From: Actinocorallia populi
GTDB lineage: Bacteria; Actinomycetota; Actinomycetes; Streptosporangiales; Streptosporangiaceae
NCBI RefSeq assembly: GCF_002995495.1
Contig: NZ_PVZV01000001.1
Span: 558,001 to 622,000 of the forward strand
Reading direction: 5' to 3'
Length of the DNA: 64,000 nucleotides
Shown here: piece by piece, positions 7,478-34,784 of the stretch
How the letters are laid out: each line of letters begins with the position of its first letter
How positions within the stretch are numbered: the first letter of the stretch is position 1
Position numbers and translations under genes: made by a program
Notes under the pieces: generated by a model
What the model saw: only the letters and a program-made list of their open reading frames with translations
Told to the model about the DNA's origin: nothing
The model's database searches: none

Positions 7478-7491
7478 CCCGTCCCGAAGCT

Positions 7492-15564: not shown

Positions 15565-15587
15565 CACGCCACCTTATCCCGGCAACT

Positions 15588-15639
15588 CTGGCTACACATG
15601 TGACCAGAACTTCCCTAGACTGGCCACACCCGTAGCCAG
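15588..15639. promoter_or_regulatory. twin operator-like palindromes for the TetR regulator
   Basis: Two 20-bp sites with 8-bp arms: CTGGCTAC-acat-GTGACCAG (15588-15607) and CTGGCCAC-accc-GTAGCCAG (15620-15639). They share the consensus CTGGCYAC-N4-GTRRCCAG, and their centres are 32 bp apart, about three helical turns. They sit between the two divergent starts. Confidence 0.7.
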
Positions 15640-15652
15640 AATGGGAGTGGCC

Positions 15653-16684: not shown

Positions 16685-16735
16685 ACCCGCCATGATGGGG
16701 GCGGAAACTGCGTGACGGTGTCGCTGGGGGTGGCC

Positions 16736-19120: not shown

Positions 19121-19122
19121 TC

Positions 19123-19148
19123 ATGCACGATATGTCCCGATCGTGCAT
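19123..19148. promoter_or_regulatory. 9-bp inverted repeat between divergent genes
   Basis: ATGCACGAT and ATCGTGCAT, separated by 8 bases, lie between the kinase start (19120, minus) and the serine hydrolase start (19214, plus). The symmetry and position suggest an operator for an unidentified regulator. Confidence 0.5.
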
Positions 19149-19213
19149 TCTTCATGCCGGACCGGGGCGAGCGGCACTGATGCCGGACGCACCGCGCTCG
19201 GCAGGCTGAACGC

Positions 19214-21073
19214 ATGAAGACAACGGTCACCTCCGTGCTCGCCGTCCTCGGCCTGCTCGCGGCCCTCCCGGTCCTCGCCGCGCCCGCCCGCGCGCAGGAC
19301 GGCCTCGGCACGATGATCGACGGCGCCGTCCCCGGGCTGCTGGCCGAGGACGAGATCCCCGGCGCGGCCGTGGTCGTCGTGGAGGGCGGACGGACGGTGC
19401 TCGCCCGGGGCTACGGCCTCGCCGACGTCGCCTCCGGCCGCGCCGTCGACACCGAGACCCCCTTCCTCACCGGCTCGCTGGCCAAGGTCTTCACCGCCGA
19501 GGCCGTGCTGCGCCTGGTCGCGGAGGGCAGGCTCGACCTGCACGCGGACGTCAACCGCTACCTCACCGCCTTCCAGATCGAGGACTCCCATCCGGGACGC
19601 CCGGTGACCGTGGAGCACCTGCTCACCCACACGGCGGGCTTCGACGACGACCTCGTCGGCGTCGCCGAGGAAGACCCCGCGAAGCTCCCCTCGCTCGCCG
19701 AAAGCCTCGAGGATCGCCGGCCGCTCCGCGTCCGCCCGCCCGGCACCCGGATCGCCTACGACAACTACGCCTTCGCCCTGGCCGGGCACCTCGTCGAGGC
19801 GGCATCCGGCAGGCCGTACGCCCAGTACGTCGCCGAGAACGTCTTCGCCGCCCACGGGATGACCGGCTCGACCGCCGCGCTCCCGCACCCCGCCTCCGTC
19901 AGCGCGCGCCTCGCCCGCGGCTACCGGCCCGACGGCGATGGCCAGACCGAGCAGAAAGGCCAGTACAGCCCCTGGACCCCGTCCGGCACCGGTCCCGCCG
20001 TCACCCCCTCCGACATGGCCCGCTACATGATCGGCCAGTTGGAGCAGGGCCCCATCGCGAAGCGGATGCAGGAGCGCCGCTTCACCGCCGACGACCGGAT
20101 GCCCGGCATGGGATACGCCCTGGAGGAACGGCCGCGCAACGGCCGCCGGCTCCTCTACAAGGACGGAGACGTCCCCGGTTACCACAGCGCCATGGCCCTC
20201 ATGCCCGACCAGGAATTCGGCGTCTACGTCGTCTTCAACGGCGACGGCACGTCCGGCGCCGCCCCCTGGGACGCGCAGGAGCTCATCAACCGGATCGTCG
20301 ACCGGCGCTTCCCCGCCGCCCGGGCTCCCGCGCTCTCCCCGCTCACCACGGACGTCTCCGCCTACGCGGGCTCCTACCGCTCCACCCGCACCAGCCGGAC
20401 CAGCCTGATGAGGGCCTCGACCCTGTTCGCCCTCCCGACCGTCGAGGCGGGCCCCGGCGGCACCCTCACCACCACCGGGCTCTCCCCGGATCCCGACCGG
20501 CAGACGCAGCACTGGATCCAGGTCTCCCCCGGCCTCTTCCAGGAGCGCGACGGCCGGGCCCGCATCTCCTTCCCCGGCGACGGCGTCCTCGTCTCCTCCG
20601 CGCTGCCCGGCGAGGTCTACGAGAAGACCCCCTGGTACGACGCCCCGACCCTGAACCTCCCCCTGTTCGCCACGGGCGCCCTCGCGCTGCTCCTGACGGC
20701 CCTGGGTCTGCCCGTCGCCGCCGCCGTCCGCCGCGTCCGCGGCACCCGCTCACCGGTGCCCGCGCGGCTCGCCGCCCTCACCGCCTGGACCGGTGCCGTG
20801 CTGGCCACCGCCTTCCTCGGCGGATTCGCCCTGCTGATGGCGGACCCGAACGTCATCATGGCGGCGATCCCCCTGAACTCCCCGGATCTGGCCGCCCTGC
20901 CCGTCCTGGCCACCCTCGCGCTGGCCTTCACCGCCCCCGCGCTCCCCGCGGCCGTCCTCGCCTGGCGCGCCCGCTGGTGGAGCCCCGCCCTGCGCACCGC
21001 CTACACCCTGCTCACGGTGGCCGCTCTCGGTTTCTTCAAGGTCGCCTACGACCACAACCTCCTCCTCTTCTGA
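19214..21073 (+). CDS. membrane-anchored serine hydrolase, class C beta-lactamase/DD-peptidase fold
   Basis: 619 aa. A Sec signal peptide ends near APARAQ (residue 28). The catalytic domain (about 35-370) has S88-L-A-K91 in TGSLAKVFTA, the Tyr182-Asp-Asn184 motif in AYDNYAF, and a C-terminal DGDVPGYHSAM where the KTG-like strand is expected (HSG/GYHS variant). The region 375-470 is a beta-rich linker, and the last 150 residues hold about four membrane helices. Family members act as esterases, D-aminopeptidases or beta-lactamase-like enzymes at the cell surface; the substrate is unknown. A hairpin spans the stop codon. Confidence 0.9.
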   Translation: MKTTVTSVLAVLGLLAALPVLAAPARAQDGLGTMIDGAVPGLLAEDEIPGAAVVVVEGGRTVLARGYGLADVASGRAVDTETPFLTGSLAKVFTAEAVLRLVAEGRLDLHADVNRYLTAFQIEDSHPGRPVTVEHLLTHTAGFDDDLVGVAEEDPAKLPSLAESLEDRRPLRVRPPGTRIAYDNYAFALAGHLVEAASGRPYAQYVAENVFAAHGMTGSTAALPHPASVSARLARGYRPDGDGQTEQKGQYSPWTPSGTGPAVTPSDMARYMIGQLEQGPIAKRMQERRFTADDRMPGMGYALEERPRNGRRLLYKDGDVPGYHSAMALMPDQEFGVYVVFNGDGTSGAAPWDAQELINRIVDRRFPAARAPALSPLTTDVSAYAGSYRSTRTSRTSLMRASTLFALPTVEAGPGGTLTTTGLSPDPDRQTQHWIQVSPGLFQERDGRARISFPGDGVLVSSALPGEVYEKTPWYDAPTLNLPLFATGALALLLTALGLPVAAAVRRVRGTRSPVPARLAALTAWTGAVLATAFLGGFALLMADPNVIMAAIPLNSPDLAALPVLATLALAFTAPALPAAVLAWRARWWSPALRTAYTLLTVAALGFFKVAYDHNLLLF

Positions 21074-21080
21074 GGAGGAG
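21059..21080 (+). terminator. hairpin spanning the serine hydrolase stop codon
   Basis: CTCCTCCTC-ttct-GAGGAGGAG, a 9-bp perfect stem with a 4-nt loop. The stop TGA lies in the loop/right arm. No U-run. Confidence 0.45.
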
Positions 21081-21122
21081 GGCCGCCCGGACGGCACCGG
21101 GAGAAGCAGAAGGGCCATCTGG

Positions 21123-21350
21123 TCAGGGGCAGCACGCCCTCACGTACTGCTGCCCACGCCGGATGCCGTGCGCGGTCATGGCCTCGCTGATGTTCTCGAT
21201 GGACGCGGAGTACGTGGTGGCGGCCTCGGAGCCGTAGTGGACGCCGAGCGTCGAGATCACCGCGTCGTGCCCGGCCACCACGCGCTCCACCGCCTCGGGG
21301 TCCAGGGCGTCGGCCTTGGCGACGTCCAGGGCGGGATCGCCGACCGGGAA
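21123..21350 (-). pseudogene. fragment of an NAD(P)H-binding (NmrA/SDR-like) protein
   Basis: The minus strand encodes about 75 residues resembling the middle of an NAD(P)-binding protein: ALDPEAVERVVAGHDAVIST, LGVHYGSEAATTYSASIENI, SEAMTAHGIRRG. The nucleotide-binding N-terminus and the C-terminal half are missing, and upstream sequence in the frame is unrelated. It lies just outside the left repeat of the island, so it is probably a gene broken by island insertion or decay. Confidence 0.55.
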
Positions 21351-21409
21351 CGACCCCTGGCCCGAGCGGCTTGACGGGATATGGCGGCCTCGGCCGGACA
21401 CGATAAGAG

Positions 21410-21528
21410 CCGGTCGCCGGACACGGCCACGAAAGATCCCGGAAATGCCGAAGGGCCCCGACACGAAAGTGTCGGGGCCCTTCGGTCACGCGGTGGGCCC
21501 CGACTTTCGTCGGGGCCCCAGGGTGGGG
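21410..21528. repeat. left imperfect direct repeat of the island (possible attL)
   Basis: About 118 bp resembling 34589-34705 in the same orientation. Shared blocks include CCGGTCRCCGGAC, CGGCCACGAAAGA, CACGCGGTGGGCC, CGACTTTCGTCGGGGCCCCA and GGGTGGG. A hairpin at 21447-21486 has a 15- to 17-bp nearly perfect stem closed by GAAA, and a second hairpin (GGGCCCCGAC-tttc-GTCGGGGCCC) follows. The right copy abuts tRNA-Leu. Confidence 0.7.
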
Positions 21529-21623
21529 TACCGACGAAACCCTGTGACCAGCCGTTTCGCTCGGGCCGTCGTCAGCGGTTTCCACGCTAGGAAAGATCAT
21601 TTTCCACCCGCTTGAGCGGAAGA

Positions 21624-22551
21624 CTGAGCCTCTTTCATCCTCGGGTGGCTTGAGCGGTTCGGTGGTTCTGCAGGACGGCGATCGCTTTGACGAGGTGGCC
21701 GGCCTTGGCGGGGCTGCAGCGCAGCCTGTGCAGGATGCGCCATGACTTCAGCTGCGCGTTCGCGTGTTCGCCGGGCCCGCGCAGCTTGGCGTGCGAGCGA
21801 TTTGCCTGCTTCTGACCTGCAGGTTTGTTCCTGCCCTTGTACGGAGTGATGACGACTGCGGCCTCGGCACCCTGATAGGCCTTATCCGCCAGGGTGAGGA
21901 TCCCTGTCTTTTGCAGCTCGCGCAGGATGCCCCAGATGCGGGCGGCGGTCAGGTCGTGGATCTTGCCCGGCATCGCCCCGGACGTCCACAGGATCCGCCC
22001 GTTGGGCGCGGCTATGACCTGCACGTTCATCCCGTGGCACTGGTGTTTGACCGAGAAGTAGGGCCGGTCGGCCTTCACGCGGTCGGTGCGGATCAGGGTG
22101 CCGTCCAGAATCAGATGGCTCAGCCCGTCCTTCCGGGCCGCGCGCAGTGCTGTTGTGAGTTTGGGCGAGCGGGCCGACACAGGGCGACGACTTCGTCGAC
22201 GTAGCGCCACGCAGTCGCCTCCGAGACTCCGAATCCGGCTGCGAGCTGGGCGAACGTCTCGCCCTTGCGCAGGTGGACCAGCACCAGCAATGCCTGTTGG
22301 GCCGGGTTCAGGCGCCGCCACTGCGACCTGATCGCCCGGCGGTGGCGGCAGACGATGGCGGCCACGTAGTTCAGCATTGGGCGCGGCAAATCGACCGCAG
22401 CGCGGTAGAACAGCATCAGAAGCTCCTGGTGGGACAAGGTGATTGTGGTGATCAACCCGCCTACCAGGGGCTCCTCTGCGTCCAGGAGCGAATCCTCAAG
22501 TCGCGATCATGCCGTGACCAACGCCCGCCGCCGAGGATGAAAGACGCTCAG
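21624..22551 (-). mobile_element. IS5-family-like insertion sequence
   Basis: A 928-bp element with 21-bp terminal inverted repeats, CTGAGCSTCTTTCATCCTCGG, one mismatch apart (21624-21644 and 22531-22551). Inside is a two-frame DDE_Tnp_4-type transposase on the minus strand. No convincing target-site duplication is visible next to the ends. Size and transposase type fit IS5. Confidence 0.8.
21635..22455 (-). pseudogene. IS5-type transposase, frameshifted (HTH part and DDE part in two frames)
   Basis: The first reading frame (22455 down to about 22180) gives an HTH_Tnp_4-type N-terminus with FAQLAAGFGVSEATAWRYVD. The second frame (about 22180 to 21635) gives the catalytic part with LDGTLIRTDRV (first Asp), ADKAYQGAE (second Asp) and a late ANAQLKSWRILHRLR region near the expected Glu/His. 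A -1 shift near 22178-22185 (GCCCTGTGTCGG on the minus strand) would join them as VVAL-VSARSPKL. It may be programmed frameshifting or an inactivating deletion; no canonical slippery A-run is seen, which favours mutation. Confidence 0.7.
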
Positions 22552-22719
22552 TGATCACCAGCTGAACCAACGGCACCGCTGAAGGCTTGTTCGTTGAGGC
22601 CGTCGCTCCGCAGACGTAGCACTCGAGGGTGCCCTCGACCGGCCATCCCTGGTCTCGGCCTCAGCGACCAAATCCTTTGTCAGCAGGCTCTTACGGCCGG
22701 CTGAACCAGCCAACATCGG

Positions 22720-23610
22720 TTACCTGCAGCTGGTGGCCGACGACAGGTGGGTGAGCTTTTCGGGGTTGACGATGCCGTAAATGTGCCGCGCCCTGGCGGT
22801 GACGGCGTCCAGGTCCAATACCAGCACCGCGAGCAGCTCATCCTCAGCCGTCAGCAGCGCGGTGGGCTGGCTACCGGGGAGCCAGCGGGTGCGCAGGTGA
22901 CCATAGCGGGGGCCGAGCTTTGCGAGTAGGCGTGCCACCTTGGCCGCCCCGCTCACCGGGCGTAGGGCGGCCCGCACCGCGCCGCCGCCGTCGGTCCACA
23001 GGGTGACGTCGGGGGCGAGGACATCCATCAGGTCGCCGAGGTGGCCGCCGAGCGTGGCGGCCAAAAAACGCTCGGCGGCCTGGCGCGCGAGGTCGGGGTC
23101 TGCGGGGAAGCGCGGCCGCCGCGCCTGGACATGCTCGCGGGCGCGGTGGATCAGCTGGCGGGCCGCTGCGGGGGATCGCTCCAGGACGCGGGCGATCTCG
23201 GCGTGCTCGTAGCCGAATCCCTCGCGCAGCACGAAGGCCGCCCGTTCCAGAGGCGAGAGGGTCTCCAGCACCACCAGCAGGCCGAAGGTCAGTTCTTCTG
23301 CCCGGGAGACGGCCTCGGCAGGGTCGGCTTCGGTGGGGTCGGCTTCGGTGAGCAGAGGCTCCGGTAGCCAGGGCCCCACGTAGTCCTCCCGGGCCGCGCG
23401 CAGACGGCGCGAGCGTGCCAGTGCTTGCCGTACCGCGATGCGCACCAGGTACGCCTTGGGATGCTCGATCCGGTCGGCCTCCACGGAGGACCAGGCCAGC
23501 CAGGATTCCTGCACTACGTCCTCGGCGTCGTGCACGCTGCCCAGGATCTCGTAGGCGAGGGTGAACAACAGGTTCCTGTGTTGGTTGAAGGTGGTGTCCG
23601 CGGCGGCCAT
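22720..23610 (-). CDS. sigJ: ECF41-type sigma factor with SnoaL-like C-terminal domain
   Basis: 296 aa. Region 2 is at about 10-75 (AYEILGSVHDAEDVVQESWL), followed by a linker with WLPEPL. Region 4 is at about 120-175 (LSPLERAAFVLREGFGYEHA). A C-terminal SnoaL-like domain (about 185-290) has the DGGG motif (LWTDGGGAV). WLPEP and DGGG are the hallmarks of the ECF41 group, whose C-terminal extension regulates sigma activity without an anti-sigma factor. ATG 23610 has AAGGAGA. It diverges from a membrane protein and an NAD-dependent epimerase, fitting the known pairing of ECF41 genes with carboxymuconolactone decarboxylase, oxidoreductase or epimerase genes. The symbol reflects common usage for the family. 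Confidence 0.88.
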   Translation of the reverse strand: MAAADTTFNQHRNLLFTLAYEILGSVHDAEDVVQESWLAWSSVEADRIEHPKAYLVRIAVRQALARSRRLRAAREDYVGPWLPEPLLTEADPTEADPAEAVSRAEELTFGLLVVLETLSPLERAAFVLREGFGYEHAEIARVLERSPAAARQLIHRAREHVQARRPRFPADPDLARQAAERFLAATLGGHLGDLMDVLAPDVTLWTDGGGAVRAALRPVSGAAKVARLLAKLGPRYGHLRTRWLPGSQPTALLTAEDELLAVLVLDLDAVTARARHIYGIVNPEKLTHLSSATSCR

Positions 23611-23662
23611 CTGTCTCCTTGAATGCCATGTCCTGCCCATATAAGGCGGTTCGCGACCCAGA

Positions 23663-23701
23663 TGTGACATGTGCCCTGGATCACATGGCGTCCGTGTCAC
23701 G
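23663..23701. promoter_or_regulatory. possible divergent ECF41-type -35 elements
   Basis: TGTCACA on the minus strand (23663-23669) faces the sigma gene, and TGTCACG on the plus strand (23695-23701) faces the epimerase operon. ECF41 promoters are reported to use a TGTCACA -35 element. The -10 matches at proper spacing are only partial, so this is tentative. Confidence 0.45.
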
Positions 23702-23756
23702 TCCCCGGATGCGCCTCGCCTCTCATGAGCAGAGGCGAGGAAAGGAACCATGACAG

Positions 23757-24146
23757 ATGTCCAAGGACAGACTGGTCAAGGCCGTGGTGGTGCTGGCGGC
23801 GTCGACCATGCTGAGCACCGGATGCTGGGCCCGGCTGGATCCAGCGAGCTTCGCCCGTTTCGCCAACTGGCCCAATCACGTGCACTTCCTGCACGACGCG
23901 GGCGTGTTCCAGATCGGGATCGGGTTGATGATGCTGTGCGCCCTGCGCTGGCGCGACGTCCTGGCCGTGGTCCTGGCCGGTTTCGTGTTCACCAACACCT
24001 TCCATGCCGTCAACCACGCTTTCGACTTGCCGCTGGGTGGCAACGCCTCCGACCCGTGGACGTTGCTGGCGGTCTCCGCGATGGCGCTGGCGGCCTGGGT
24101 CGTGCGGATCCGGCAGCTGCGCGGCCGGGCGGAGGCGGGGTCATGA
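23757..24146 (+). CDS. small four-helix membrane protein in ECF41 operon
   Basis: 129 aa with about four hydrophobic helices (LVKAVVVLAASTMLSTG; HDAGVFQIGIGLMMLCAL; DVLAVVLAGFVFTNTFHAVN; TLLAVSAMALAAWVV) and conserved-looking His in NHVHFLHD and FHAVNHAF. The start at 23757 has AGGAA ten bases upstream. Its stop overlaps the epimerase start as ATGA. The position between an ECF41 sigma factor and its epimerase suggests a shared regulon. No function is recognised. Confidence 0.75.
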   Translation: MSKDRLVKAVVVLAASTMLSTGCWARLDPASFARFANWPNHVHFLHDAGVFQIGIGLMMLCALRWRDVLAVVLAGFVFTNTFHAVNHAFDLPLGGNASDPWTLLAVSAMALAAWVVRIRQLRGRAEAGS

Positions 24147-25087
24147 GGGTCCTGTTGGCCGGCGCGACCGGCGCACTCGGCTCCGCCCTGATCCCCGTGC
24201 TGCTGGCCGAGGGGCATCACGTGCTCGGCCTGACCAGGTCCGCCGCCAGCGCGGCCCGGCTGGCCACGCTGGGCGCGCAGCCGGTGCGAGCCGACATCAT
24301 GAACGTCGAGGAGTTGCTGACCGCCCTGGAAGGCCGACGGGCCGACGCGGTGATCCACCAGGCGACCGCCATCACCGGCGTGCCGTTCCTGCACCGGCAT
24401 CTGTACGCTACCGACGCGCTGCGCGAGCGCGGCACCGCCCACCTGCTGCGCGCCGCAGCCGAGCTCGGCGCCCGTCGCTTCCTCACCCAGTCGTTCTTCC
24501 TCGGGTACGGCTATCGCGACCACGGCGAGCAGTTGCTGGACGAGGACCACCCCTTCGCCGTCCGCACCGGCCACCGAGGCTTCGACCGGCACATGATCTC
24601 CCTGCGCAGCAACGAGGGCCAGGTCTTCGGCACCCCGGGCATCGACGGCGTCGCCCTGCGTTATGGCATGTTCTACGGTCCGGAGCCCGCCACCCGGCGG
24701 CTGATCCACCTCGCCCGGCGACGCCGGCTGCCCGTCCCGAGCCCCAGCGGTACCGTCTCGCTCGTCCACATCCACGACGCCGCCTCGGCCACCGTCGCCG
24801 CACTGCACCGGGGGCGCCCCGGCCAGCCGTACAACATCGTGGATGACCATCCGGTCACTTTTGAGGACTACTTCCGCGCCGTCGCACAAGCCGCGGGGGC
24901 GCCTCCTCCACGGCGGGTGCCCAGCAACCTCCTCACCGCGCTGCCGTACCTGCGCGCTCTGATGGTCACCACCCGCATCCGCTTGTCCAACCGGCGCGCC
25001 ATCGACGAGCTGGGCTGGACGCCCCGCTACCCCTCCTGCCGCGACGGCCTGGCCGCGCTGGTTGCAAGGACGGCCAGTGACCACTGA
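24143..25087 (+). CDS. NAD-dependent epimerase/dehydratase (extended SDR)
   Basis: 314 aa. Rossmann motif GATGALG at residues 7-13, ADAVIHQATAITG in the fourth strand, and C-terminal substrate-domain sequence (FGTPGIDGVALRYGMFYGP; YNIVDDHPVTFEDYF). The usual catalytic YxxxK is not evident: the expected place reads FFLGYGYRDHGE, so catalysis may be atypical. It is the third gene of the ECF41 module and probably a target of that sigma factor. ATGA overlap with the membrane protein gene. Confidence 0.88.
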   Translation: MRVLLAGATGALGSALIPVLLAEGHHVLGLTRSAASAARLATLGAQPVRADIMNVEELLTALEGRRADAVIHQATAITGVPFLHRHLYATDALRERGTAHLLRAAAELGARRFLTQSFFLGYGYRDHGEQLLDEDHPFAVRTGHRGFDRHMISLRSNEGQVFGTPGIDGVALRYGMFYGPEPATRRLIHLARRRRLPVPSPSGTVSLVHIHDAASATVAALHRGRPGQPYNIVDDHPVTFEDYFRAVAQAAGAPPPRRVPSNLLTALPYLRALMVTTRIRLSNRRAIDELGWTPRYPSCRDGLAALVARTASDH

Positions 25088-25256
25088 GTCCAGCAGAGGA
25101 CGACTCGTTCGAACTCCAGGACGCCCGGCAGGACCAGGTGGGAGTCCACGGACAGAACGGCCGAACGAACGAACCGGATCGGTCGAGCATCGGCTCATGG
25201 CGGCAGAACCGCGACATGACCAGGGCTCCGAAGTCAGGCGGCCCAAAGGGCGATCC

Positions 25257-25278
25257 TTCTCCCCCGTACGGGGGAGAA
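25257..25278. terminator. 22-bp perfect palindrome downstream of the epimerase operon
   Basis: TTCTCCCCC-GTAC-GGGGGAGAA at 25257-25278 lies 170 bp after the epimerase and about 100 bp before the next gene. It may act as a terminator or an operator. The remaining 25088-25374 interval shows no gene. Confidence 0.45.
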
Positions 25279-25374
25279 AGCGCCGGCGTTCCACACCGTG
25301 GGGGGATCTCGCCCGGTCGACGCCCCGCAAGACTCGAACGCGTCTAGATCAACACACTTGGAAGGCAGGTTCAG

Positions 25375-26370
25375 GTGACACAAGGTTCTGGTGAGTTTCC
25401 TGCCGAGATGAGTGCGCGCGCGCGATGGAGCGCGGTGCGCAGGCTCGCGGGCTATGCCGCGGCCCTCAGCATGTCGCTCTACCTGGCGGTCAAGCTCATC
25501 TGGGTCGCTGCGGCGCTGCTCGGGCACGGTCCGGACGACTACGGCACCGCCGACTGGGTGCTACTGAACATCGTCACCGTGGTGATGGCGATGACCGGGA
25601 TCGCACTGGGGCTGGCGCTGGCACAGCGATGGGGCCGTCGGCTGCCGGCCATGCCGGTGATCTTCTTTTCCTGGGTGGGTGCGGGCTTCCTGGTCCCGAT
25701 GCTTCCCTACTCGGTGATCAAAGGCGTCCTCGGCGCACTCGGGGTCGATCTGGGTGGCGGTGAGGACTCCGCCTCGGCTCCGCGAGGGGAGACGGTCTTC
25801 CTCACCATCGGCTTCGCCGGTATGGCCGTGGGGCTGGCCGTGGCCTTGCCGATCTACCTGAGGGAGAGATGGCCGAAGGCCTTCCTCGGCCGCGTCGGGG
25901 ACGGCCCTGCCCGCTCATGGGCCCTGGTCACGATGGCGATGGCGGTGGCTTCCGGGCTGGGACTGGCCTGGTCCTACTGGGCGCTGGGCGGGACGCTGGG
26001 CCTCGACCCGGCTCATCGCGACCGCTGGGATCTCAACGGGCGATTGCTGAACGCGAGTTCGGGACTGTGGGCCCTGCTCGGAGCTTGGAGCACCTGGACA
26101 CTCACGCGCTGCCGACCGGCCCGGCTTCGGCGGTGGATCCCCATGACGCTGGCCTTCGGGGCTTCAGGCTCGCTATTCGCGTGGAGCAGTTGGAAGCTGC
26201 CGATGGTGATCCTGCAGCCCGGAGGTTTCGTGACCGCCGAATACACGATGGTCGCAGTCATTCAACACGCCTTGGGCATCGCCGTCGGCCTGATCTTCAT
26301 GGCCGCCATCCTGCGTGTCGCCCGGAGAAAAGACAAAGCGCCGATAAGGAATACCACAGGACTCGAATAA
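25375..26370 (+). CDS. polytopic membrane protein of unknown function
   Basis: 331 aa with about eight hydrophobic helices, for example AALSMSLYLAVKLIWVAAAL, VLLNIVTVVMAMTGIALGLA, FFSWVGAGFLVPMLP, TIGFAGMAVGLAVALPIYL and a last one near HALGIAVGLIFMAAIL. Short charged termini, with no recognisable enzymatic motif. The start is GTG at 25375 (AGGTTCAG upstream); an ATG at 25408 is an alternative. It stands alone between two non-coding stretches of the island. It resembles actinobacterial hypothetical membrane proteins, but no family can be named. Confidence 0.75.
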   Translation: MTQGSGEFPAEMSARARWSAVRRLAGYAAALSMSLYLAVKLIWVAAALLGHGPDDYGTADWVLLNIVTVVMAMTGIALGLALAQRWGRRLPAMPVIFFSWVGAGFLVPMLPYSVIKGVLGALGVDLGGGEDSASAPRGETVFLTIGFAGMAVGLAVALPIYLRERWPKAFLGRVGDGPARSWALVTMAMAVASGLGLAWSYWALGGTLGLDPAHRDRWDLNGRLLNASSGLWALLGAWSTWTLTRCRPARLRRWIPMTLAFGASGSLFAWSSWKLPMVILQPGGFVTAEYTMVAVIQHALGIAVGLIFMAAILRVARRKDKAPIRNTTGLE

Positions 26371-27289
26371 GCGCCCTGCCCCAGTAACCCGGCTGGAGGA
26401 ATGTCCTCAATCCTAAGGACCACGGGTGGAAGAACCTCCGTCCCCGAGCGTGGGACGACTGGCCGCTGACCTGCTGCCCTCCGGCGTCAGCCGTCCATGC
26501 CGCCGTGCCCCGCCAGAGGAACCATGAGCCCACCGGCCGAACACCTTCGCGGTCCAGATCGACTCCCACGGCGTCAAGCGCCGCCGGGCCCGAGACATGA
26601 CATGCAGGTACAAGGTCGGCGACGCCCATCGACCGCACCGCCAGCAGCCCAGACCTCCAGACCACCGGGGAATCGAGGAGGAAGGTCACCTGGGCCCGGA
26701 AACCGGGAAAGACCGTGGGTTCAAATCCCGCAACGATCATTGCGAGTTTCGAGGGCGCCCTTGGGGCCTGGGCGAGCACACACCCGGACATGGAAGACGC
26801 ACACGGCGGCGAGACCGTCCCGGGCATAGAGCTGGAGCTCGTGGCCGACGACGCGCGGTGCGCGGCCCAGCTCGCCCGCCTGCTGGGCGTGCATCCCAGC
26901 TCGGTCAGCCGCACGCTGTCCTCCGCCGCCGGGCGAGGCATCTGCCTGCCCCCGCACACCGTCGACCCCGTCACCAAAAGGCGCTCTTTCTCCACCACGG
27001 CGTTCCTGGAGCCCAGCCCGCATAAGCCCAAAAGCCGCAATGAGCGGATCTTGAGTGTCCGATGTAACGGATACATCGCAAGCCGCGCGACCATCGTCGC
27101 GGCAGAGCCGCTGGTCAGCGTGTTGGGCAGGCTCTGATGTATGTGATAGCCATTCTTGTCCACGACACGTCTGCTTACGCTAGATGAAGGAATCCTTCAT
27201 CCGATGAAAGCGACCTACAGAACCATCGCACAGGCCCCGCCAGCAGAGACGCATGGCCATATAGGTGTTGAACCCATGGGGGTCAGCCC
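26371..27289. other. non-coding stretch with repeat and tRNA-like remnants
   Basis: About 920 bp with no convincing gene. It holds a tRNA T-arm-like sequence (GTGGGTTCAAATCCCGC, about 26717-26733, followed by AACGATCA) without a matching 5' half, and the left MITE-like repeat at 27007-27083. An open frame at 26715-27137 contains a short HTH-like stretch (CAAQLARLLGVHPSSVSRTL), but it begins in the T-arm-like segment and has no ribosome-binding site. Confidence 0.5.
27007..27083 (+). repeat. MITE-like repeat, left copy
   Basis: About 77 bp similar to the reverse complement of 28347-28431: both read TGGARCCCA..., CATAARCCCA, CRATGAG/CAACGAG, GATCTTGRGTG and then a CGATGTA...TACATCG hairpin (27060-27078 here). 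It brackets, with its inverted partner, the frameshifted VOC gene. Confidence 0.55.
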
Positions 27290-28146
27290 CTACGAGGGTC
27301 CTTGCGGAGGGCGAGTGCGCAGGTTCTTTCCCTTGAAAGGGCGTAGCAGGCTCTGGAAGCTCAGCAGGGAAGCCTTGCCGCGAGGCGGGCAGAGCAGAGC
27401 CAGGTGGGCGCCTTGCGGGTCGATCAGATCGCAGAACCGGCCCTGGTCCCGGTCGACGGGGGCGGTGCGGATCTGAGCGCAGACCTCGACCGCCCGGGCG
27501 GCGGCCTCATCGCAGTCGTCCACCGTGAAGTGCGGTACCCAGTGGGGCGCAGCCGTCGGCGGCCACCGATCACCCATGGCCATCGCGTCGGCCACGGGAC
27601 CGTCCCGGTCGGCCCACACCAGGCGGTCCTCGGACCGGCTCACCGACCTCCAGCCCAGGAGTTCCTCATAGAAGCCACAGGCGCCGACAGGTCACGGCTG
27701 GCCAACTCGACCCAGGACAAGGCACCAGGCTCGTCGACCACCGAGGCTCCCTGGTGGCGGTAGGGTTGCCACAGGCCGAACTCCACTCCCTCTGCGTCCT
27801 GGGCCAAGCCCAGCAGGCCCAGGTCCTCCATCTCGGTCGGCGGCAGCAGCACCCGCCCGCCGAGGTCCGGCACCCGCTGCAAGGACTCCTGCGAATCGGG
27901 GGTCTGGAAGTAGAGCAGCCAGGTCGCGGGTGAAGAAGAATCGGTCGTGGCCGACATCCCGCTCACCTCGCCTCCCGTCGGACCCGGCAGGGTGAAGACC
28001 GTGTAGTCGCCCACCAGATCACTGCTCAGCACATAGGACTCCCAGCCGAACAGCATCCCGTAGAACGCCTTGGACGCCTCGATGTCGGAGCTGTGCAGCC
28101 CTGACCATGACGGTCTGCCCCAGGCGTAACCGAGTACCTCCGGCAC
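27290..28146 (-). pseudogene. two-domain VOC (glyoxalase/bleomycin-resistance-like) protein, frameshifted
   Basis: From the GTG at 28146 (GGAGGTGGGG upstream), the first frame encodes one VOC domain: GRPSWSGLHSSDIEASKAFY, LFGWE, LGLAQDAEGVEFGLW, then SWVELASRDLSAPVA. It then runs out of frame near 27660. The second frame resumes exactly as FYEELLGWR..., PHFTVDDCDEAAARAVEV, and FCDLIDPQGAHLALL to 27290. One missing base at GTGGCTTCTAT explains the break. Intact homologues are tandem-VOC proteins of about 260 aa. It is either a decayed gene or a sequencing error; its lying within repeats favours decay. Confidence 0.75.
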
Positions 28147-28346
28147 CGAACCCCACCTCCCTGCCTCTCCCCGAGCGGCCCGGCCTCTGATCAGCACTCT
28201 CTCCCACCGATCGCCACGACCATCGCCAAAAACCCAAAATGGGCACATTGTCAGCAAAAGCCATTGAAATTAGATCAGAGAAGACGAAACCGGACTCCCC
28301 GGTTCGGGTGTCCGTAAGAGCGGTGTCATGGAGTGCACCCGTAACC

Positions 28347-28431
28347 CGATGTACCGAATAAGGGGCCGTTGCCCGGTACATCGACCACCCAAGATCTACT
28401 CGTTGTGGATCCTGGGTTTATGTGGGTTCCA
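28347..28431 (-). repeat. MITE-like repeat, right inverted copy
   Basis: Inverted relative to 27007-27083. A hairpin CGATGTACC...GGTACATCG (28347-28355 and 28375-28383) is followed by sequence similar to the left copy, ending GGGTTCCA at 28431. The larger loop here (19 nt) against 5 nt in the left copy shows they have diverged. Confidence 0.55.
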
Positions 28432-28905
28432 GCACTGGACCCCATCTACGCCCTGGCCTACCTGGGGTACCCGCTGCCGGGCATCCGATCGCCGGGCAGT
28501 TCAAGTTCGCTTCCGCCGGTACGACCTTCCCAAGAGGAAGGCATCGGCTGGGGATGGCTACTGGTGATCGGCGCGCTCGCCTTGGCCCTCGGCGGATGGG
28601 CTGCCATGTGGCAACGCAACCGCTAGACCTCCGGGTAGCCCTTCGCCAGTGGACCACTACTCCCGCAGAAGGATTGCGGGCATGGCATCCCTGCGGCCGC
28701 GGCCTGCAGCGGCCTCATCGATGCGAGTGAGGCTCCCGCTTTCCCCGCAGAAGCCGTGTAGGACAGCCCTGCAGCCGCTCTTGCAAGTGTCTTACCAAGG
28801 GATATCTGCATCCGGATCCGGGCTGGGAGGCAGCCGTAGCAGTGGGTTTCACTGCCTGCGTAAGCCCCGGATCGGCAGTGCTGCCACAACCGTGTGGAGG
28901 CGGTG
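28432..28905. other. intergenic stretch without a supported gene
   Basis: A frame at 28369-28626 could encode 85 aa with one hydrophobic helix (GWGWLLVIGALALALGGWAA), but it begins inside the MITE-like repeat, so it is doubtful. The rest, up to the winged-helix gene, shows no coding signature or clear repeat. Confidence 0.4.
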
Positions 28906-29796
28906 ATGCGAATGACCGCCCAGCGGCACCCCGGGAACGTTACGCTCTGCTCTGTGGTCAATTACACGCATTCGGTGAGCGCTTCCCGTCAGGCGTTCAC
29001 CGACGCGCTGGAGCACGTCGAGGGCGACATCCAAGTGCTTCAAGCTCGGCAGGCCGGTCTCCGCATCACTATCAGTGATGCGGAGACCGCCCTGGAGCGC
29101 TGCGAGAGCCGACTGGCCTTCCTGGCACAGTCCAAGGATGTTCTGACCCAGCTGGTCTTGGACACAGCGAACGCAGCGCAAGAAGCAGGCTCCTCCACCG
29201 GATCCGCCGATCCCCCGCCGACCGATGCGCAGTCCTCGGCCGATAGGGACGGGGAGCCTGCAGATGCCCCGCTCAGCCGTTGCGACCAGATCCAGGAGGT
29301 CGTCGACCGGCACCCCGATCGTGAATTCCGTCCCCGGGAGATCGCTGAGCTACTGGGCTGGAACGATGAGGGCAACGATGAGACCGCCAAGGTGCGGTCG
29401 TTGATGAAGTACATGGAAAAGCGCGGGCGTCTTCGCAAGAACGCCGACGGGGCCTACCAGTCGCTCGCCGCCTCCTCTCGGGCTGCGCAGAGCGGGCCCC
29501 ACCAGGAAGCCGACCCAAGTGGGGAAACGCCTTCAGCCGATGCTCCGGGCAGGTCCTCGCGCAGGTCCCGCACTCAGGCCGACTCCATCGATGTGTCCCA
29601 GGTGCTGGCGTACGTACGCGAGAGTCCCGACCGGAAGTTCCGGCCCCACCAGATCGCCGATGAACTCGCGATCCTGGACCAGGACGCGCTGCGCCGTGTG
29701 CTGAAGGAACTGGTCGAGCAGGGGCGGATGTCGGCGTGCTCGAGCGGGCGGTACCAGTACGTCCAGCAGCCCCACGCTTCGGGGAGGGCCATGTAG
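28906..29796 (+). CDS. coiled-coil protein with two winged-helix domains
   Basis: 296 aa from the ATG at 28906, which has GGAGG five bases upstream. Residues about 25-95 form a predicted coiled coil (ALEHVEGDIQVLQARQAGLR; DAETALERCESRLAFLAQSK), like a dimerisation arm. Two winged-helix repeats follow: CDQIQEVVDRHPDREFRPRE, and after a Ser-rich linker, VSQVLAYVRESPDRKFRPHQ. Each has the same xxxRpxxIAeLLG/DELAI core and ends with a GxYQ wing. This looks like a DNA-binding protein of an accessory region, possibly related to the recombinase-like module downstream. A U-tailed hairpin follows it. No named family. Confidence 0.7.
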   Translation: MRMTAQRHPGNVTLCSVVNYTHSVSASRQAFTDALEHVEGDIQVLQARQAGLRITISDAETALERCESRLAFLAQSKDVLTQLVLDTANAAQEAGSSTGSADPPPTDAQSSADRDGEPADAPLSRCDQIQEVVDRHPDREFRPREIAELLGWNDEGNDETAKVRSLMKYMEKRGRLRKNADGAYQSLAASSRAAQSGPHQEADPSGETPSADAPGRSSRRSRTQADSIDVSQVLAYVRESPDRKFRPHQIADELAILDQDALRRVLKELVEQGRMSACSSGRYQYVQQPHASGRAM

Positions 29797-29903
29797 ACGT
29801 GTGGCCATCTCACGGCAGAGACCATGAGATGGTCCCGAGTCCTGTGAAAAGGGGCTCGCCGCTGGGCTGCCACCCGGCGGCGAGCCGACACCGCAACCGT
29901 CAC

Positions 29904-29930
29904 CCCAGCACCGAATAGCTGCTGGGTTTT
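29904..29930 (+). terminator. Rho-independent terminator
   Basis: CCCAGCA-ccgaatagc-TGCTGGG followed directly by TTTT, 108 bp after the winged-helix gene. Confidence 0.7.
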
Positions 29931-29936
29931 CACCGA

Positions 29937-30002
29937 ACGGCAGGGCCACCCCCGACCATACCGGGCGATGTCCCGGTGTGGTCGCTTTTCGTGCCCTGCC
30001 GT
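29937..30002 (+). promoter_or_regulatory. nested inverted repeats upstream of recombinase-like gene
   Basis: An outer 10-bp perfect pair ACGGCAGGGC/GCCCTGCCGT (29937-29946, 29993-30002) encloses a 12-bp pair GACCATACCGGG/CCCGGTGTGGTC with one mismatch (29954-29965, 29972-29983). It would fold into a long bulged hairpin 50 bp before the GTG start at 30054. It could be a cruciform protein-binding site, a leader structure or an element end. Confidence 0.5.
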
Positions 30003-30053
30003 GAGCTAAGTGTGTCCGCCTTGTGGGCACTACGGCATATCACGAGGGGTTTT

Positions 30054-31136
30054 GTGAATCATTCGCCCGATTTCTCGGCTGTGAAGCGGCCCGGCTCCGA
30101 GGAACGTGGTCAGCACAGGAGAGCACCCGGCCGGGACACCGCCGAGCCCGGCGTCTTGGGCTATCGGTGGGAGATAGCTGCGGCGATTCAGGGGTTCCGG
30201 CCAGCGGAGTGGTCGGCGGCCTGGGTGACCACGGCGCAGGTGGTGCGGCGGATCGTCGCCGCCGTCGACCCGCCAGATCCCCAGCGGGCTCGGCAGCTGA
30301 TGCGGCTGGTGGCCCGTCTGGCGGCCTTCGTCTACAACGCCGGCCGTCCGGTCGGGTTCTCGACGCTGCTGGGCACAGAGCTGATCGACCGGTTCTGCGA
30401 GAGCGGGTGCGGTGGCCTCAGGCGCAGCACCCGCGAACAGTTCCGCAGGGAGCTGGAACGGCTGGCCCGCATCGTGTACGGCAGCAGCGGCCAGGCAGGT
30501 CTGTGGGTTTCGAGCAGGTGGCGCCCCTACACGGCGGTCGAGCTGACGGCGTTGTGGTGGTGCGCGACCGGCCAACGCACCGAGCAACTGAAGCGGGGGC
30601 ACCGGATGCTGCTGTGCCTGGGATACGGGTGCGGACTGCCGACGCGGAGAATTGTCGACCTGCGGGTCTGCGACGTGAGGTCTGCGGCCGAGGACGGGAC
30701 CGTCCGGCTCGACCTGCCGGGAGGCAGTGCGCCCGCGGTGTGCCTGCACGGCTGGGAGGACGTCCTGCGCGCCGAGATCACCGGGATGCGCCCGCAGGAA
30801 TACCTGTTCCAACCAGGGCGGGCCAGGCGGACGAGCGCTCTGGTCTCCGAACTGGTCCGCCGCTGCGAGCACACCGATGCCCCGCCTCTCCTGGTGAGCC
30901 GGCTGCACGCCACCTGGTTCACCGATCTGCTCCTGGCGCGTACGCCGTTCACTTCGATCGCCGCGCAGTGCGGCTCCGGTGAGCTGGCCCTCAAGACCCT
31001 GGCCCGGGTGCTTCCCTACCTGCCCGAAGCCGATCCCGGCCGGGCCGCGCTGCTGCTGCGCGGCCCGGCACCACAGCCCCCGGCCTCGCACCTGCCCGAC
31101 GTGCGCCGTCTCGAGGAGCGCACCGGGACGCTCTGA
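30054..31136 (+). CDS. tyrosine-recombinase-like protein lacking catalytic Tyr (copy A)
   Basis: 360 aa from the GTG at 30054, which has GAGGGG upstream. An N-terminal SAM-like core-binding region (about 75-150; STREQFRRELERLARIVYG) is followed by a region resembling an integrase catalytic domain: YTAVELTALWWCATGQRTEQ, LLCLGYGCGLPTRRIVDLRV and CDVRSA, then RLHATWFTDLLLARTPFTSI in place of the HxxR helix. The segment where Tyr is expected reads LARVLPYLPEA, so the nucleophile is not in place. It is a paralogue of the protein at 31749. Probably DNA-binding without strand exchange; this is inference. Confidence 0.65.
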   Translation: MNHSPDFSAVKRPGSEERGQHRRAPGRDTAEPGVLGYRWEIAAAIQGFRPAEWSAAWVTTAQVVRRIVAAVDPPDPQRARQLMRLVARLAAFVYNAGRPVGFSTLLGTELIDRFCESGCGGLRRSTREQFRRELERLARIVYGSSGQAGLWVSSRWRPYTAVELTALWWCATGQRTEQLKRGHRMLLCLGYGCGLPTRRIVDLRVCDVRSAAEDGTVRLDLPGGSAPAVCLHGWEDVLRAEITGMRPQEYLFQPGRARRTSALVSELVRRCEHTDAPPLLVSRLHATWFTDLLLARTPFTSIAAQCGSGELALKTLARVLPYLPEADPGRAALLLRGPAPQPPASHLPDVRRLEERTGTL

Positions 31137-31266
31137 TGGTGACCGGCTCCGCACAGCGATTCAGACCACCGGCCGCCCGGCAGCGCGGAAAAGACTGACG
31201 GTGTCCGCCCGCACGCCCGCAGCGGCGCCCGCTCGACCTCCGGCGTGCCCGGAAGATGAGGAACAC

Positions 31267-31623
31267 CTACCCATGCGATCCGCTGCCGTCTTCGAGGCTG
31301 CTGCCTTCGAGCAGGGCTCTTTCCGGGAACTCCGGCCACAGCCGCCGCTGCAGCGCCAACTCCAGGTTCGCGATCGTGATCAGGTCGGGCCACACCGCTC
31401 CGGCCAGGACGTTGGCGATCGTCTGCCGGTTCACACCGCTGAGGGCGCCCAGCCGCTTGGCGCTCACCGCCTGCTGGCCCATCGCCTCGGCCAGACGGGC
31501 CGCCAGCTGCTGGGCCACGCGCGCGCCGTGATGGTCGGCGAGGGCGGCCTGCGGCCAGTCGCCCTCGAGCACGTAGTCGCGGGGCCTTCTCGCACGAGAT
31601 TCGTCACCGGCCACGACCCACAT
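31267..31623 (-). CDS. XRE-family helix-turn-helix regulator
   Basis: 118 aa. The central HTH (QAVSAKRLGALSGVNRQTIA followed by NVLAGAVWPDLITIANLE) matches the Cro/C1 fold; the rest is hydrophilic. It starts at ATG 31623 with no clear ribosome-binding site, so it may be leaderless; a TTG at 31635 is in frame. It lies between two paralogous recombinase-like genes and diverges from the second, with about 125 bp between starts. It probably regulates the module and itself. Confidence 0.75.
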   Translation of the reverse strand: MWVVAGDESRARRPRDYVLEGDWPQAALADHHGARVAQQLAARLAEAMGQQAVSAKRLGALSGVNRQTIANVLAGAVWPDLITIANLELALQRRLWPEFPERALLEGSSLEDGSGSHG

Positions 31624-31748
31624 TGTGGACGACAAAGCCCAGACGAAACCGAAAAAGAGGTGCTAATGGTGTAGCACCCTCCGCAGTCCGGGCAGCTGTG
31701 ATCTTGAGGGGAAGATCTCCCTTCCTGGCACACCGACTGCGAGCGGAC

Positions 31749-32663
31749 ATGGCGGACAAGAACGGGGCGGCGATCGGGACCTACGCTCCGGCGGGCGACC
31801 CACCTGGGTGGCCGCGGGTGGCGGGGCAGGTGCGGGCGACCGTGGCGCTGGCGGCACCGGCCGTGCCGTATCCGGAGGACGAGCTGATGGGGGTGCTGGC
31901 CAAGCTGGCGCTGTTCGCCGACGCCGAGGGCTATCCGCTGGAGGCCGCCTCCTGGCTGTCGCGCGAGTACATCGAGCGGTTCGTGCTGGTGGGATGCGCG
32001 CACTTGGGGGAGGCCACGCGGGCGAACTACCGCTCCAAACTGCTGCGGCTGCGCGAAGCGGTGCTGGGAGGAGACTGCGCGAGCGGCACGCCCGCGCGGC
32101 TGTCGGGATCGGCGGCCTCGCGGCCCTACAGCCGGGCCGAGCAGGCCGCGCTGTGGGCGTGGGCGGCCGGGCAGCCCACCGAGGAGCTCCGGTGCGGGCT
32201 GAAGGTGCTGATGGCGCTCGGGCTGGGATGCGGCCTGGACTCCCGCGACGTCCTTCCGCTCCGCGCCCGCGACGTCCGCGCAACCGATGGGGTGGTCGTG
32301 GCGGTGCGGGGCAGACGCGCCCGGATGGTGGCCTGCCGCCGCCCTTGGGAACGGGTTCTGGCCTCAGAGGCCGCCCGCGTCAAGCCCGAGCGGTACCTGC
32401 TGCGGCCACAGGTGGCGAACCGGGGCGGCAACCTCGTCACCAACTTCGTCTCCCGCGCCCATCCCGCCCCCGGCACCCCGGCGCTCAAGACCACACGGCT
32501 GCGGGCGACCTGGCTGGTCTCCCTGATCGACGCAGGACTGCCACTACCGGTCATCGTGGCCGCCGCGGGCCTGCAGACCCTGCACGGCCTCAGCCGCATC
32601 CTGACCCACGTGCACAACGTCGGCCCGGAGGTCGCCGCGACGCTGCTGCGAGGACAGGAATGA
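31749..32663 (+). CDS. tyrosine-recombinase-like protein lacking catalytic Tyr (copy B)
   Basis: 304 aa from the ATG at 31749. Core-binding-like segment LGEATRANYRSKLLRLREAV; catalytic-domain-like segment YSRAEQAALWAWAAGQPTEE, LMALGLGCGLDSRDVLPLRA, VVVAVRGRRARMV; then TTRLRATWLVSLIDAGLPLP, matching the HxLRHT helix with His replaced by Thr but Arg kept. The terminal LSRILTHVHN aligns with the usual YTHV but has Leu at the Tyr position, and no Tyr follows. Its stop overlaps the start of the DDE gene (ATGA), so the two are probably translated together. Confidence 0.65.
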   Translation: MADKNGAAIGTYAPAGDPPGWPRVAGQVRATVALAAPAVPYPEDELMGVLAKLALFADAEGYPLEAASWLSREYIERFVLVGCAHLGEATRANYRSKLLRLREAVLGGDCASGTPARLSGSAASRPYSRAEQAALWAWAAGQPTEELRCGLKVLMALGLGCGLDSRDVLPLRARDVRATDGVVVAVRGRRARMVACRRPWERVLASEAARVKPERYLLRPQVANRGGNLVTNFVSRAHPAPGTPALKTTRLRATWLVSLIDAGLPLPVIVAAAGLQTLHGLSRILTHVHNVGPEVAATLLRGQE

Positions 32664-34465
32664 CCGCCCCGCTGCACGAGCCCGGCCTTCACGAAGAGGC
32701 CGTCGCCAAGACCTACCCGGGCGGTAAAGGCCACGGCTGGCTCAGCCTGCGGGAGGAACGCACCCAGATCTCCGATGGGGAAGTCCAGCGGGCTGTTGAC
32801 TTCGTCGCCGCCAGCGGCCTGCTGGAGACCTTCGAACCGCTCCTGGCCCGCAAGACCGGACGGCCCCGCACCTGCACCGTCGAAGGACTCCTGGTCGGCC
32901 TCCAGCTGGCCTGCCGCCAGAGCGGCGGCGGCCACCTGCACCTCAACCACGTCACCGACATCCTCTACTGGCGGATCGGCGAGCAGTGGCGACGCCGGTT
33001 CAAACTCCGCGACAAACCCGATGACCTCGATGGATTCGAAGCCGCCTACTCCGTGGTCCGCAGGATCTTCCACGACCTGCTGCGGCACCTGGACCCCTCA
33101 CCCCTGCCCAAGAATAGGCGCCTGCTCAAAACCGACGCCGCCCGCATCGAGAAGAACGCCGACCACAAGGCCCTGAACGCCCGAGATGAACTGCTGACCT
33201 TCGCCTGCAACCAGGTCCTGGAAGCCTCACTGCAGCCCGTCCGCCCGCTGCTGGAGGCCGCGGACGGCTCCCTGGGCCTGGACGCCACCGTCATCACCAC
33301 CCCCTCCCGAGGCATCCGCAGCAAAGGCCCCTACCTGTCGACCGACCCCGACACCGACTGATACGTCCGCCACGGCGACCACGCCGACCCCGACCACCCC
33401 AACCCCGCAACCCCTCTCCCGGAAGAGAACAGCACCCGCTCCCGCAAACCCAAGTACCTGTACGGCTACGACGCGGCCCTCGCCGTCACCCACGCCATCA
33501 CGCCCTCCGCAACACCACCACCCGGCGCGCCCCCGCTCCCCGCCCTGGTCCTGGGGATGAAGCTCGCACGGCCAGGCCACAGCCCCGGCGCCAACGGGAC
33601 CGCCGTCCTTGCCGACATCGTCCGCCGCGGATACCCCACCGGCTACGTGGCCGCCGACAACGCCTACAACAACTCCCTTCCCGAGCATTACCAGCTCCCG
33701 CTGCGCAGCCTGGGATTCAGCCCTGTCTACAACTACTCCGTAAAACAATTCGGCGTCCAGAGCCAGGTCTACGGAGCACTCCAGGTCGAAGGGTCCTGGT
33801 ACTGCCCGCACACGCCCCCTCAGCTGATCTCCGCGACCCAAGACCTGTACCGCCGCAAGAACGACCCCGCGAAGATCGACCAGGTCACCTGGCGCGCCCG
33901 CGCCGACGCCCGCACCCCCTACCAGCTCGCGCCCAAAGGCCGCGCCAAACCCTCAGACGGCCACCAGCGCTACATGTGCCCGGCCACCGCAGGCCGCCTC
34001 CAATGCCCCCTCAAACCCACCAGCATGGGCAAAAACCCCCGGCTGCCCCTCGTCGCCATACCTCCCAGCCCCGTCAAACCGCCCCTGATCTGCAAACAGA
34101 CCGCCATCACTGTGGCCCCCAAACACGGCGCCAAGCAGTGGCAACCCCTCACCTACGGCAGCCCCGAATGGCAACACGCCTACGCCACCTTGCGCAACGC
34201 CACCGAAGGCATGAACGGCTACGCCAAAGACGACGCCAGAGAAGCCATCGAACGCGCCCAAGGACGCCGCGTCCGCGGCATCGCAGCCCAAAGCCTCCTG
34301 CTGGCCTTCCAGCTCGCACACGCCAACACCAGAAAGATCACCATGTGGGCCGACAGCCTCCCCGGCCCCACCGGCAAACCACGCCGCCGCACACCCCGCC
34401 GACGAACCCGCAACCTCAGTGAGTGGACACCCAAGGGCTACATCGAAACCAGCCCCGCCACCTGA
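32660..34465 (+). pseudogene. DDE-transposase-like protein, interrupted by one in-frame TGA
   Basis: One frame of 602 codons with a single stop at codon 234 (TGA, 33359-33361). The first part (233 aa) has TCTVEGLLVGLQLACRQSGG, WRIGEQWRRRFKLRDKPDDL and the first putative Asp in GSLGLDATVI. After the TGA the frame continues with a second Asp in GYVAADNAYNN and a putative Glu in LRNATEGMNGYAKD, consistent with a D-D-E RNase H-like nuclease. The residue at the TGA would naturally be Trp (TGG) in a DxDWYVR context, so a point nonsense mutation is likely. It starts inside the stop of recombinase-like gene B. The N-terminal ATG reading is intact, so a truncated product may be made. Confidence 0.65.
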
Positions 34466-34588
34466 CCACAACACCCTCGACCGCCCGGACGCCCACGACG
34501 GCCTCCGGGCTTCAGCACGTCCGCAATCGAGTCACAACCAGGACATACCCGACAAGGCCCGCCCCTGGGTCAGGCTCCACCGGGAAAA

Positions 34589-34705
34589 CCGGTCACCGGA
34601 CGCGGCCACGAAAGACCATGTAAATGACGAACGGCCCCGACGCTTTCGCATCGAGGCCGTTCCGCCACGCGGTGGGCCCGACTTTCGTCGGGGCCCCAGG
34701 GTGGG
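34589..34705. repeat. right imperfect direct repeat of the island (possible attR)
   Basis: Matches 21410-21528. It contains a diverged first hairpin (GAACGGCC...GGCCGTTC, with changes relative to the left copy that keep pairing at two positions) and a second hairpin GGGCCCGAC-tttc-GTCGGGGCCC that would act as the terminator of the tRNA gene on the minus strand. The last four bases belong to the tRNA 3' end. The remaining 34466-34588 shows no gene. Confidence 0.7.
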
Positions 34706-34784
34706 CGAGGAGGGATTTGAACCCTCACACCCTTTCGGGCACACGGACCTGAACCGTGCGCGTCTGCCGTTCCGCCACTCGCCC
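34702..34784 (-). tRNA. tRNA-Leu (anticodon CAG)
   Basis: The minus strand gives a 7-bp acceptor stem GGGCGAG/CTCGCCC with discriminator A, an anticodon loop TTCAGGT closed by CACGG/CCGTG (anticodon CAG), a long variable arm (GCCCGAAAGGGTG), and a T-arm GAGGGTTCAAATCCCTC. Length 83 nt fits class II tRNA-Leu. CCA is not encoded in full. It is the likely integration target of the island to its left. Confidence 0.95.

Follow-up and report, generated by a model that had tools for sequence, protein, structure and literature searches.

We consider here a module of four genes in a 64,000-nucleotide stretch of the Actinocorallia populi genome (contig NZ_PVZV01000001.1, positions 558,001 to 622,000; hereafter the window, in whose coordinates positions are given): two genes for tyrosine-recombinase-like proteins (A and B), an XRE-type regulator gene lying between them, and a gene for a DDE-type transposase. 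As we will demonstrate below, the module forms that end of a 13,173-bp element which lies nearest a tRNA gene; the element has 15-bp terminal inverted repeats (TIRs), and the window holds a damaged, cargo-carrying copy belonging to a real family of tRNA-3′-end-specific transposons, undescribed as far as we have found. We consider it probable that the module is the transposition unit of these elements, in which a catalytically dead tyrosine recombinase would recognize the 3′ half of a tRNA gene and the DDE transposase would carry out insertion.

Element ends and placement beside tRNA genes

The window element was delimited through a repeated junction, the sequence at a tRNA 3′ end recurring 13.2 kb away. 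The tRNA concerned, an intact tRNA-Leu(CAG) (34700-34784, − strand), adjoins the unit; a first-pass annotation of this DNA had missed both the tRNA and the element ends, at 21525 and 34697, which lie beyond the coordinates it gave. Read from the tRNA, the near end is CGCCC-ACCCT-GGGGCCCCGACGAAA and the far end TTTCGTCGGTACCCC-ACCCT-GGGGCCCCGACGAAA, where the right-end repeat is that of an older element at this site, and on the basis of these two readings the element spans 21525-34697, with a 5-bp target-site duplication (TSD) of ACCCT. The left-end TIR, GGGGTACCGACGAAA (21525-21539, + strand), is identical at 13 of 15 positions to the right-end repeat, GGGGCCCCGACGAAA (34683-34697, read on the − strand, an imperfect hairpin). 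The left TSD copy (21520-21524) reads AGGGT on the + strand, and the right copy (34698-34702) starts at discriminator base 73 of the tRNA (34702, − strand). The same picture is seen in genome G017 (TSD ACTCT), and G005 has the TSD ACCAG at a tRNA-Ala; in the window, G017, and G005 alike, one tRNA site has been used twice.

Related loci were gathered by searches with B or DDE of the family, the class, plasmids, and named genomes (the class-wide DDE search used a single protein as query), and tRNA and transfer-messenger RNA (tmRNA) genes were called by ARAGORN at loci picked solely by protein homology. At 23 loci, a complete tRNA or tmRNA gene has its 3′ end turned toward the DDE stop codon, 108-278 bp away and in one fixed orientation. 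The targets comprise nine tRNA species (Leu-CAG, Leu-GAG, Ala-CGC, Ala-TGC, Ser-CGA, Val-CAC, Met-CAT, Gly-CCC, and Lys-TTT) plus tmRNA. By a rough estimate (about 60 tRNA genes × 300 bp in 8 Mb), such placement would arise by chance at approximately 0.2% of loci, and among 30 ordinary IS1182-type loci of the same relatives two tRNAs lie within 1.5 kb, none of them in this arrangement. Three further loci (L032, L034, and L035) adjoin tRNA 3′-half fragments with the 5′ half missing. These fragments start near the anticodon loop and resemble att remnants of other islands.

In these elements, the TSD begins at discriminator base 73, directly beyond the acceptor stem, and the tRNA therefore stays intact. 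We applied this rule as a test with no free parameter, in which the TSD was fixed as the 5 bp from base 73 and a far end was accepted at a TIR score of at least 12/15. The test identifies far ends at nine loci, which are not wholly independent of the rule, as it was first seen on some of them; besides the window element, these are elements of 11,165 (G017), 7,270 (G005), 8,505 (G443), 18,308 (G187), 15,557 (G375), 5,862 (G503), 11,719 (G216), and 22,934 bp (G367). Control starts at bases 69-72 and 75-77 give no far ends, a start at base 74 gives one (G448, 7,396 bp), and random positions reach the TIR score in 0.44% of trials.

The right ends have features of their own. In most of them the first 28 bp form an imperfect hairpin, and most also contain a strong terminator-like hairpin 33-108 bp from base 73 (folding z about −4 to −7) that differs in sequence between elements; in the window this hairpin lies just downstream of the tRNA (34625-34665, − strand; z = −4.6). 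We infer that insertion displaces the native terminator and supplies one of its own, such that the tRNA would keep working. The right-end repeat itself is common to elements at different tRNA species. By pattern search, 7 of 151 family genomes contain the junction tRNA-Leu(CAG)-CAC-three variable bases-GGGG...GACGAAA. We rejected a host origin of the GACGAAA motif, as the native terminator of the tRNA, on three grounds: it recurs with the element at different tRNA species, variation is seen in the three bases that separate CAC from GGGG, and the same-genus genome G001 lacks it. In G001, CCCACCCT is kept and then gives way to unrelated sequence, and the tRNA, followed through to CCCACCCTGGTCAGG, is without the right-end repeat.

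A degenerate recombinase and a distant IS1182-type transposase

The first-pass annotation had placed its genes correctly: A (30054-31136, +), the XRE/HTH_3 regulator (31267-31635, −), which is divergent from B and kept in the main clades, B (31749-32663, +), and the DDE frame (32660-34465, +), whose ATG at 32660 lies inside the B stop codon (an ATGA overlap). A and B are indeed paralogues, at 38% identity. The searches with B or DDE give approximately 35 B-DDE loci, all in Actinomycetes (including Actinomadura terrae and plasmids of Streptomyces and Rhodococcus), with B directly followed by DDE at nearly all of them; the repetition of this order places the association beyond chance. Among the relatives searched, every DDE gene seen without B stands at a contig end or in a damaged copy. 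In G059, B is gone and an IS256-like gene lies within the DDE frame; in G036, B is frameshifted; and in G503, no more than a remnant of DDE is left. No relatives were detected among the viral contigs and phages searched.

On this comparison the conserved order is XRE(−)-B(+)-DDE(+), the divergent XRE gene being present at most main-clade loci, often with a gene for a coiled-coil and winged-helix-turn-helix (winged-HTH) protein upstream (about 10 loci, including 28894-29796, +, in the window). The A-XRE-B-DDE set proposed by the annotation thus holds in its last three genes, but the A/B pair is not defining, as one B per locus is usual among the relatives. A second B-type gene is present in the window, in G500 (again with an XRE gene between the two), in G199, in G375, and on the Rhodococcus plasmid, and G187 and G217 encode proteins in which two B domains are joined. 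Contig C121 of G217 (loci L075 and L076) has three family copies on 61 kb, two of them with fused B domains. Loci L025 and L066 represent the same element in two genomes (95.8% identity over 5.7 kb), one copy being without the outermost 125 bp beside the tRNA.

Taken singly, A and B have no useful match in Pfam or NCBIfam. A profile of the B family (alignment A1, 20 relatives), on the other hand, matches XerA (PDB 4a8e, E = 1.5e-9) and XerD in the PDB, as well as bona fide integrases of other genomes at weak E-values, and six B-family members match a PHROG 'integrase' family (E = 5.9e-8). An AlphaFold model of B, with a helical N-terminal domain, has Cre or Xer proteins as all 29 of its best Foldseek matches, at E ≥ 0.008 and low TM-scores; we count this model, which is shallow (three sequences; predicted local distance difference test, pLDDT, 64), as weak support alone. 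Similarity across the core-binding and catalytic domains places B in the tyrosine recombinase superfamily by kinship, in line with the relationship that the first-pass annotation had proposed.

That annotation had also pointed to an RLxATW motif and a missing tyrosine, and the window pair does carry RLHATW/RLRATW, with leucine at the tyrosine position. With the catalytic columns mapped on XerA, the second arginine (R-II) is the sole conserved catalytic residue (37 of 38 B-family members). The first (R-I) is arginine in 7 of 39, the tyrosine column holds tyrosine in 10 of 38, and no member among the 39 has lysine in the beta2/3 column or histidine at His-II or His-III. Because the complete R-K-H-R-H/W-Y set is found in none of the 39 sequences, B reads as a dead relative of tyrosine recombinases, decayed to varying degrees; A is likewise degenerate.

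The partner protein is identified as a DDE transposase by its conserved D208, D333, and E516 (alignment A2, 17 sequences). Pfam DDE_Tnp_1 and DDE_Tnp_1_6 match the DDE proteins weakly, and the NCBIfam IS1182 model (NF033551, transpos_IS1182) matches 5 of 17 members (best E = 3.8e-13), far below its curated cut-off of 270 bits, with no match for the window copy; by these profile scores the protein is a distant relative of IS1182 transposases rather than a family member. An AlphaFold model of the DDE protein (pLDDT 30 from two sequences) was not used. NCBI labels the plasmid-copy proteins 'hypothetical protein'. The annotation had treated 32660-34465 as a single DDE gene; the frame is of DDE type and overlaps the B stop codon as described, but is broken by an in-frame TGA (33359-33361) at a position where close relatives have an aromatic residue, mostly tryptophan, within the motif DPDxxWYVRxGD (alignment A2, n = 17). 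It looks like a nonsense-mutated transposase, not one intact gene, and because this frame is broken, the window copy of the transposon is probably immobile.

How the target may be chosen

The 3′ ends of tRNA genes are classic attachment sites of tyrosine recombinases, and the tRNA-specific integrases of this superfamily read the tRNA 3′ half. Since B belongs to the same superfamily, it (together with A, where present) may have lost catalysis and kept DNA recognition, in which case it would read the same half (T-arm and acceptor) and position the IS1182-like transposase at the target. The transposase would then cut at the TIRs and join the ends to the target with a 5-bp stagger. The divergent XRE protein and the coiled-coil/winged-HTH protein would probably act as regulators or end-binding accessories, the position and family of the former being those of a regulator. 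The copies adjoining 3′-half fragments suggest that the 3′ half suffices for targeting. Most likely, a dead tyrosine recombinase is kept beside a real transposase to find tRNA genes without damaging them. Three further lines of evidence argue that B guides the transposase: the 30 ordinary IS1182-type transposase loci are not placed at tRNAs in this way; the target species tracks the B tree, with 9 changes against 12.1 in shuffles (0.2%); and TnsF, an inactivated tyrosine recombinase, is the experimentally proven target selector of the Tn7-like element Tn6022 (Faure et al. 2023, PMC10293859).

Several observations weigh against this reading. The trees of B and DDE agree broadly, and phylogeny therefore cannot separate the two proteins as determinants of specificity. 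A less constrained TIR/TSD test is only modestly significant at several single loci, and roughly half of the loci examined gave no convincing far end. Copies also occur away from tRNAs, at four plasmid loci (Streptomyces and Rhodococcus), in G338, and as one extra copy in G217. Repeats resembling the right end lie at tRNA-Leu in G002, and possibly in G026, with no B or DDE; these are probably solo remnants. Finally, the support for targeting is drawn from sequence comparison. We note in passing that the repeats at tRNA-Leu in G002 (L116, 1812-1890) and G026 (L119, 957-1020) are accompanied by a hairpin. For the plasmid copies (L019-L022), the TIR/TSD search did not fix the ends. The copy without a tRNA on a plasmid of Streptomyces sp. 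NBC_00057 (L020, approximately 10515-10800) has its right end about 60 bp or less from a type I-E CRISPR array, and on its other side lie cas genes and another CRISPR array.

It might instead be the DDE transposase that recognizes the tRNA gene, through a stem-loop or palindrome preference like that of some IS1182-type elements, with B serving as an accessory in end binding, synapsis, cointegrate control, or regulation. Some IS1182-family elements do target inverted repeats, for example IS1272 (PMC5678879), and the DDE tree, too, shows a correlation with the target. However, IS1272 replaces its inverted-repeat target without a TSD (PMC5678879), whereas the elements described here generate a 5-bp TSD outside the acceptor stem. 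In addition, none of the 30 ordinary IS1182-type loci shows the arrangement, and B alone among the extra genes persists in every lineage. We regard recognition by the transposase as unlikely.

We find it highly improbable that B and DDE are passengers at the att end of ordinary tRNA islands integrated by a canonical tyrosine recombinase. The attachment-site role of tRNA 3′ ends and the three loci at 3′-half fragments would fit such islands, but the elements are bounded by TIRs with a 5-bp TSD from base 73 and not by long att direct repeats, it is B-DDE and not an active integrase that adjoins the tRNA, and one right-end repeat serves different tRNA species. Scarcely credible, too, is a live B with a shifted nucleophile (for example, a cointegrate resolvase) alongside a DDE enzyme that performs insertion, since the tyrosines and first arginines retained by some members favor it, but the lysine and both histidines are absent from every member. 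We thus prefer the reading in which B selects the target.

Cargo, known systems, and wider meaning

Between its left end and the coiled-coil/winged-HTH gene, the window element carries genes for an IS5-type transposase (DDE_Tnp_4; 21635-22321, −), near the left end and possibly a nested insertion, an ECF-type sigma factor (22720-23751, −), an epimerase (24143-25087, +), a membrane protein (25375-26370, +), and a glyoxalase-like protein (27640-28257, −). The element in G448 has a CHAT-domain protein as cargo (L072, 4279-5514). Just outside the window element lies the right end of an older family member (21410-21519; a 118-bp direct repeat at 83%), which marks the earlier insertion at the same tRNA site; no left end of the older element was found. 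This right end terminates a stretch of about 14 kb of further accessory DNA (7475-21519) between host synteny and the element. A thiamine pyrophosphate (TPP) riboswitch (6482-6599, −; Rfam RF00059) is an ordinary host feature.

The closest parallel we can draw is with Tn6022, another DDE transposon encoding an inactivated tyrosine-recombinase-type protein, a likeness to TnsF that we take from its published description and that for B extends to a presumed selector role. Tn6022, however, has TnsA, TnsB, TnsC, and TniQ, and its TnsF, which bears zinc fingers at the N terminus, is directed to comM (PMC10293859), whereas the present elements have an IS1182-type transposase, target tRNA 3′ ends, and encode a B without a zinc-finger match. 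No AAA+ or TniQ Pfam match was found in the window cargo or in the tested open reading frames of the compact G005 and G448 elements. With an IS1182-like transposase and TnsABC/TniQ unseen, the element does not appear to be a Tn7-like or Tn6022 member. Tn7-like CRISPR-associated transposons that home to tRNA genes by TnsD share protein-guided insertion beside tRNA genes, but insert approximately 30 bp downstream of the tRNA and use TnsAB, TnsC, and TnsD (PMC10293859). In some casposons the TSD overlaps the last bases of a tRNA gene that stays intact, but casposons have a Cas1 integrase and PolB, without DDE and the recombinase-like pair (PMC4046053); the scanned open reading frames of the window element gave no match to a Cas1-type integrase, setting it apart from casposons. 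The IS1182 family offers distant transposase homology (NF033551, Pfam DDE_Tnp_1), from which our elements differ in falling below the family cut-off, in their size (5.9-23 kb, with cargo), in their B, XRE, and winged-HTH genes, and in tRNA specificity with a 5-bp TSD. XerA, XerD, and the integrases are related to B by sequence and probably by fold, and B differs in having lost the catalytic set.

The first-pass annotation had proposed that tyrosine-less, presumably DNA-binding proteins work with a DDE enzyme in a transposon or a defense-like unit. TIRs, a 5-bp TSD, and tRNA targeting bear out the transposon; a PADLOC scan returned no match for A, B, or DDE and only weak HTH matches for the XRE and winged-HTH proteins, so that we do not assign the unit to anti-phage defense. 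Its interpretation as a whole is partly supported. Neither of the two outcomes that it had named as refuting, an unrelated fold or a gene order absent from other genomes, was borne out, given that B is tyrosine-recombinase-like and the order recurs. Our literature search, in which subscription journals and preprints were thinly covered, found no description of a B-DDE unit.

We consider it an even question whether these elements constitute a separate class, in which an IS-type DDE transposase is guided by a dead tyrosine recombinase to tRNA and tmRNA 3′ ends without an AAA+ protein, re-targeting has extended to nine or more tRNA species and to tmRNA, and target choice would rest with a small DNA-binding protein that can be swapped. 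The known cases of DDE transposition guided by a protein come mainly from Tn7-like elements, and these depend on an AAA+ regulator. If our reading is correct, a dead tyrosine recombinase paired with an IS-type transposase would be a second, simpler two-protein solution, acting at one exact base beside many tRNA genes; target selection would have been taken over by dead tyrosine recombinases on more than one occasion; and the pair might offer a compact tool for insertion at actinomycete tRNA loci. The B-DDE family also explains 'hypothetical' genes beside actinomycete tRNAs.

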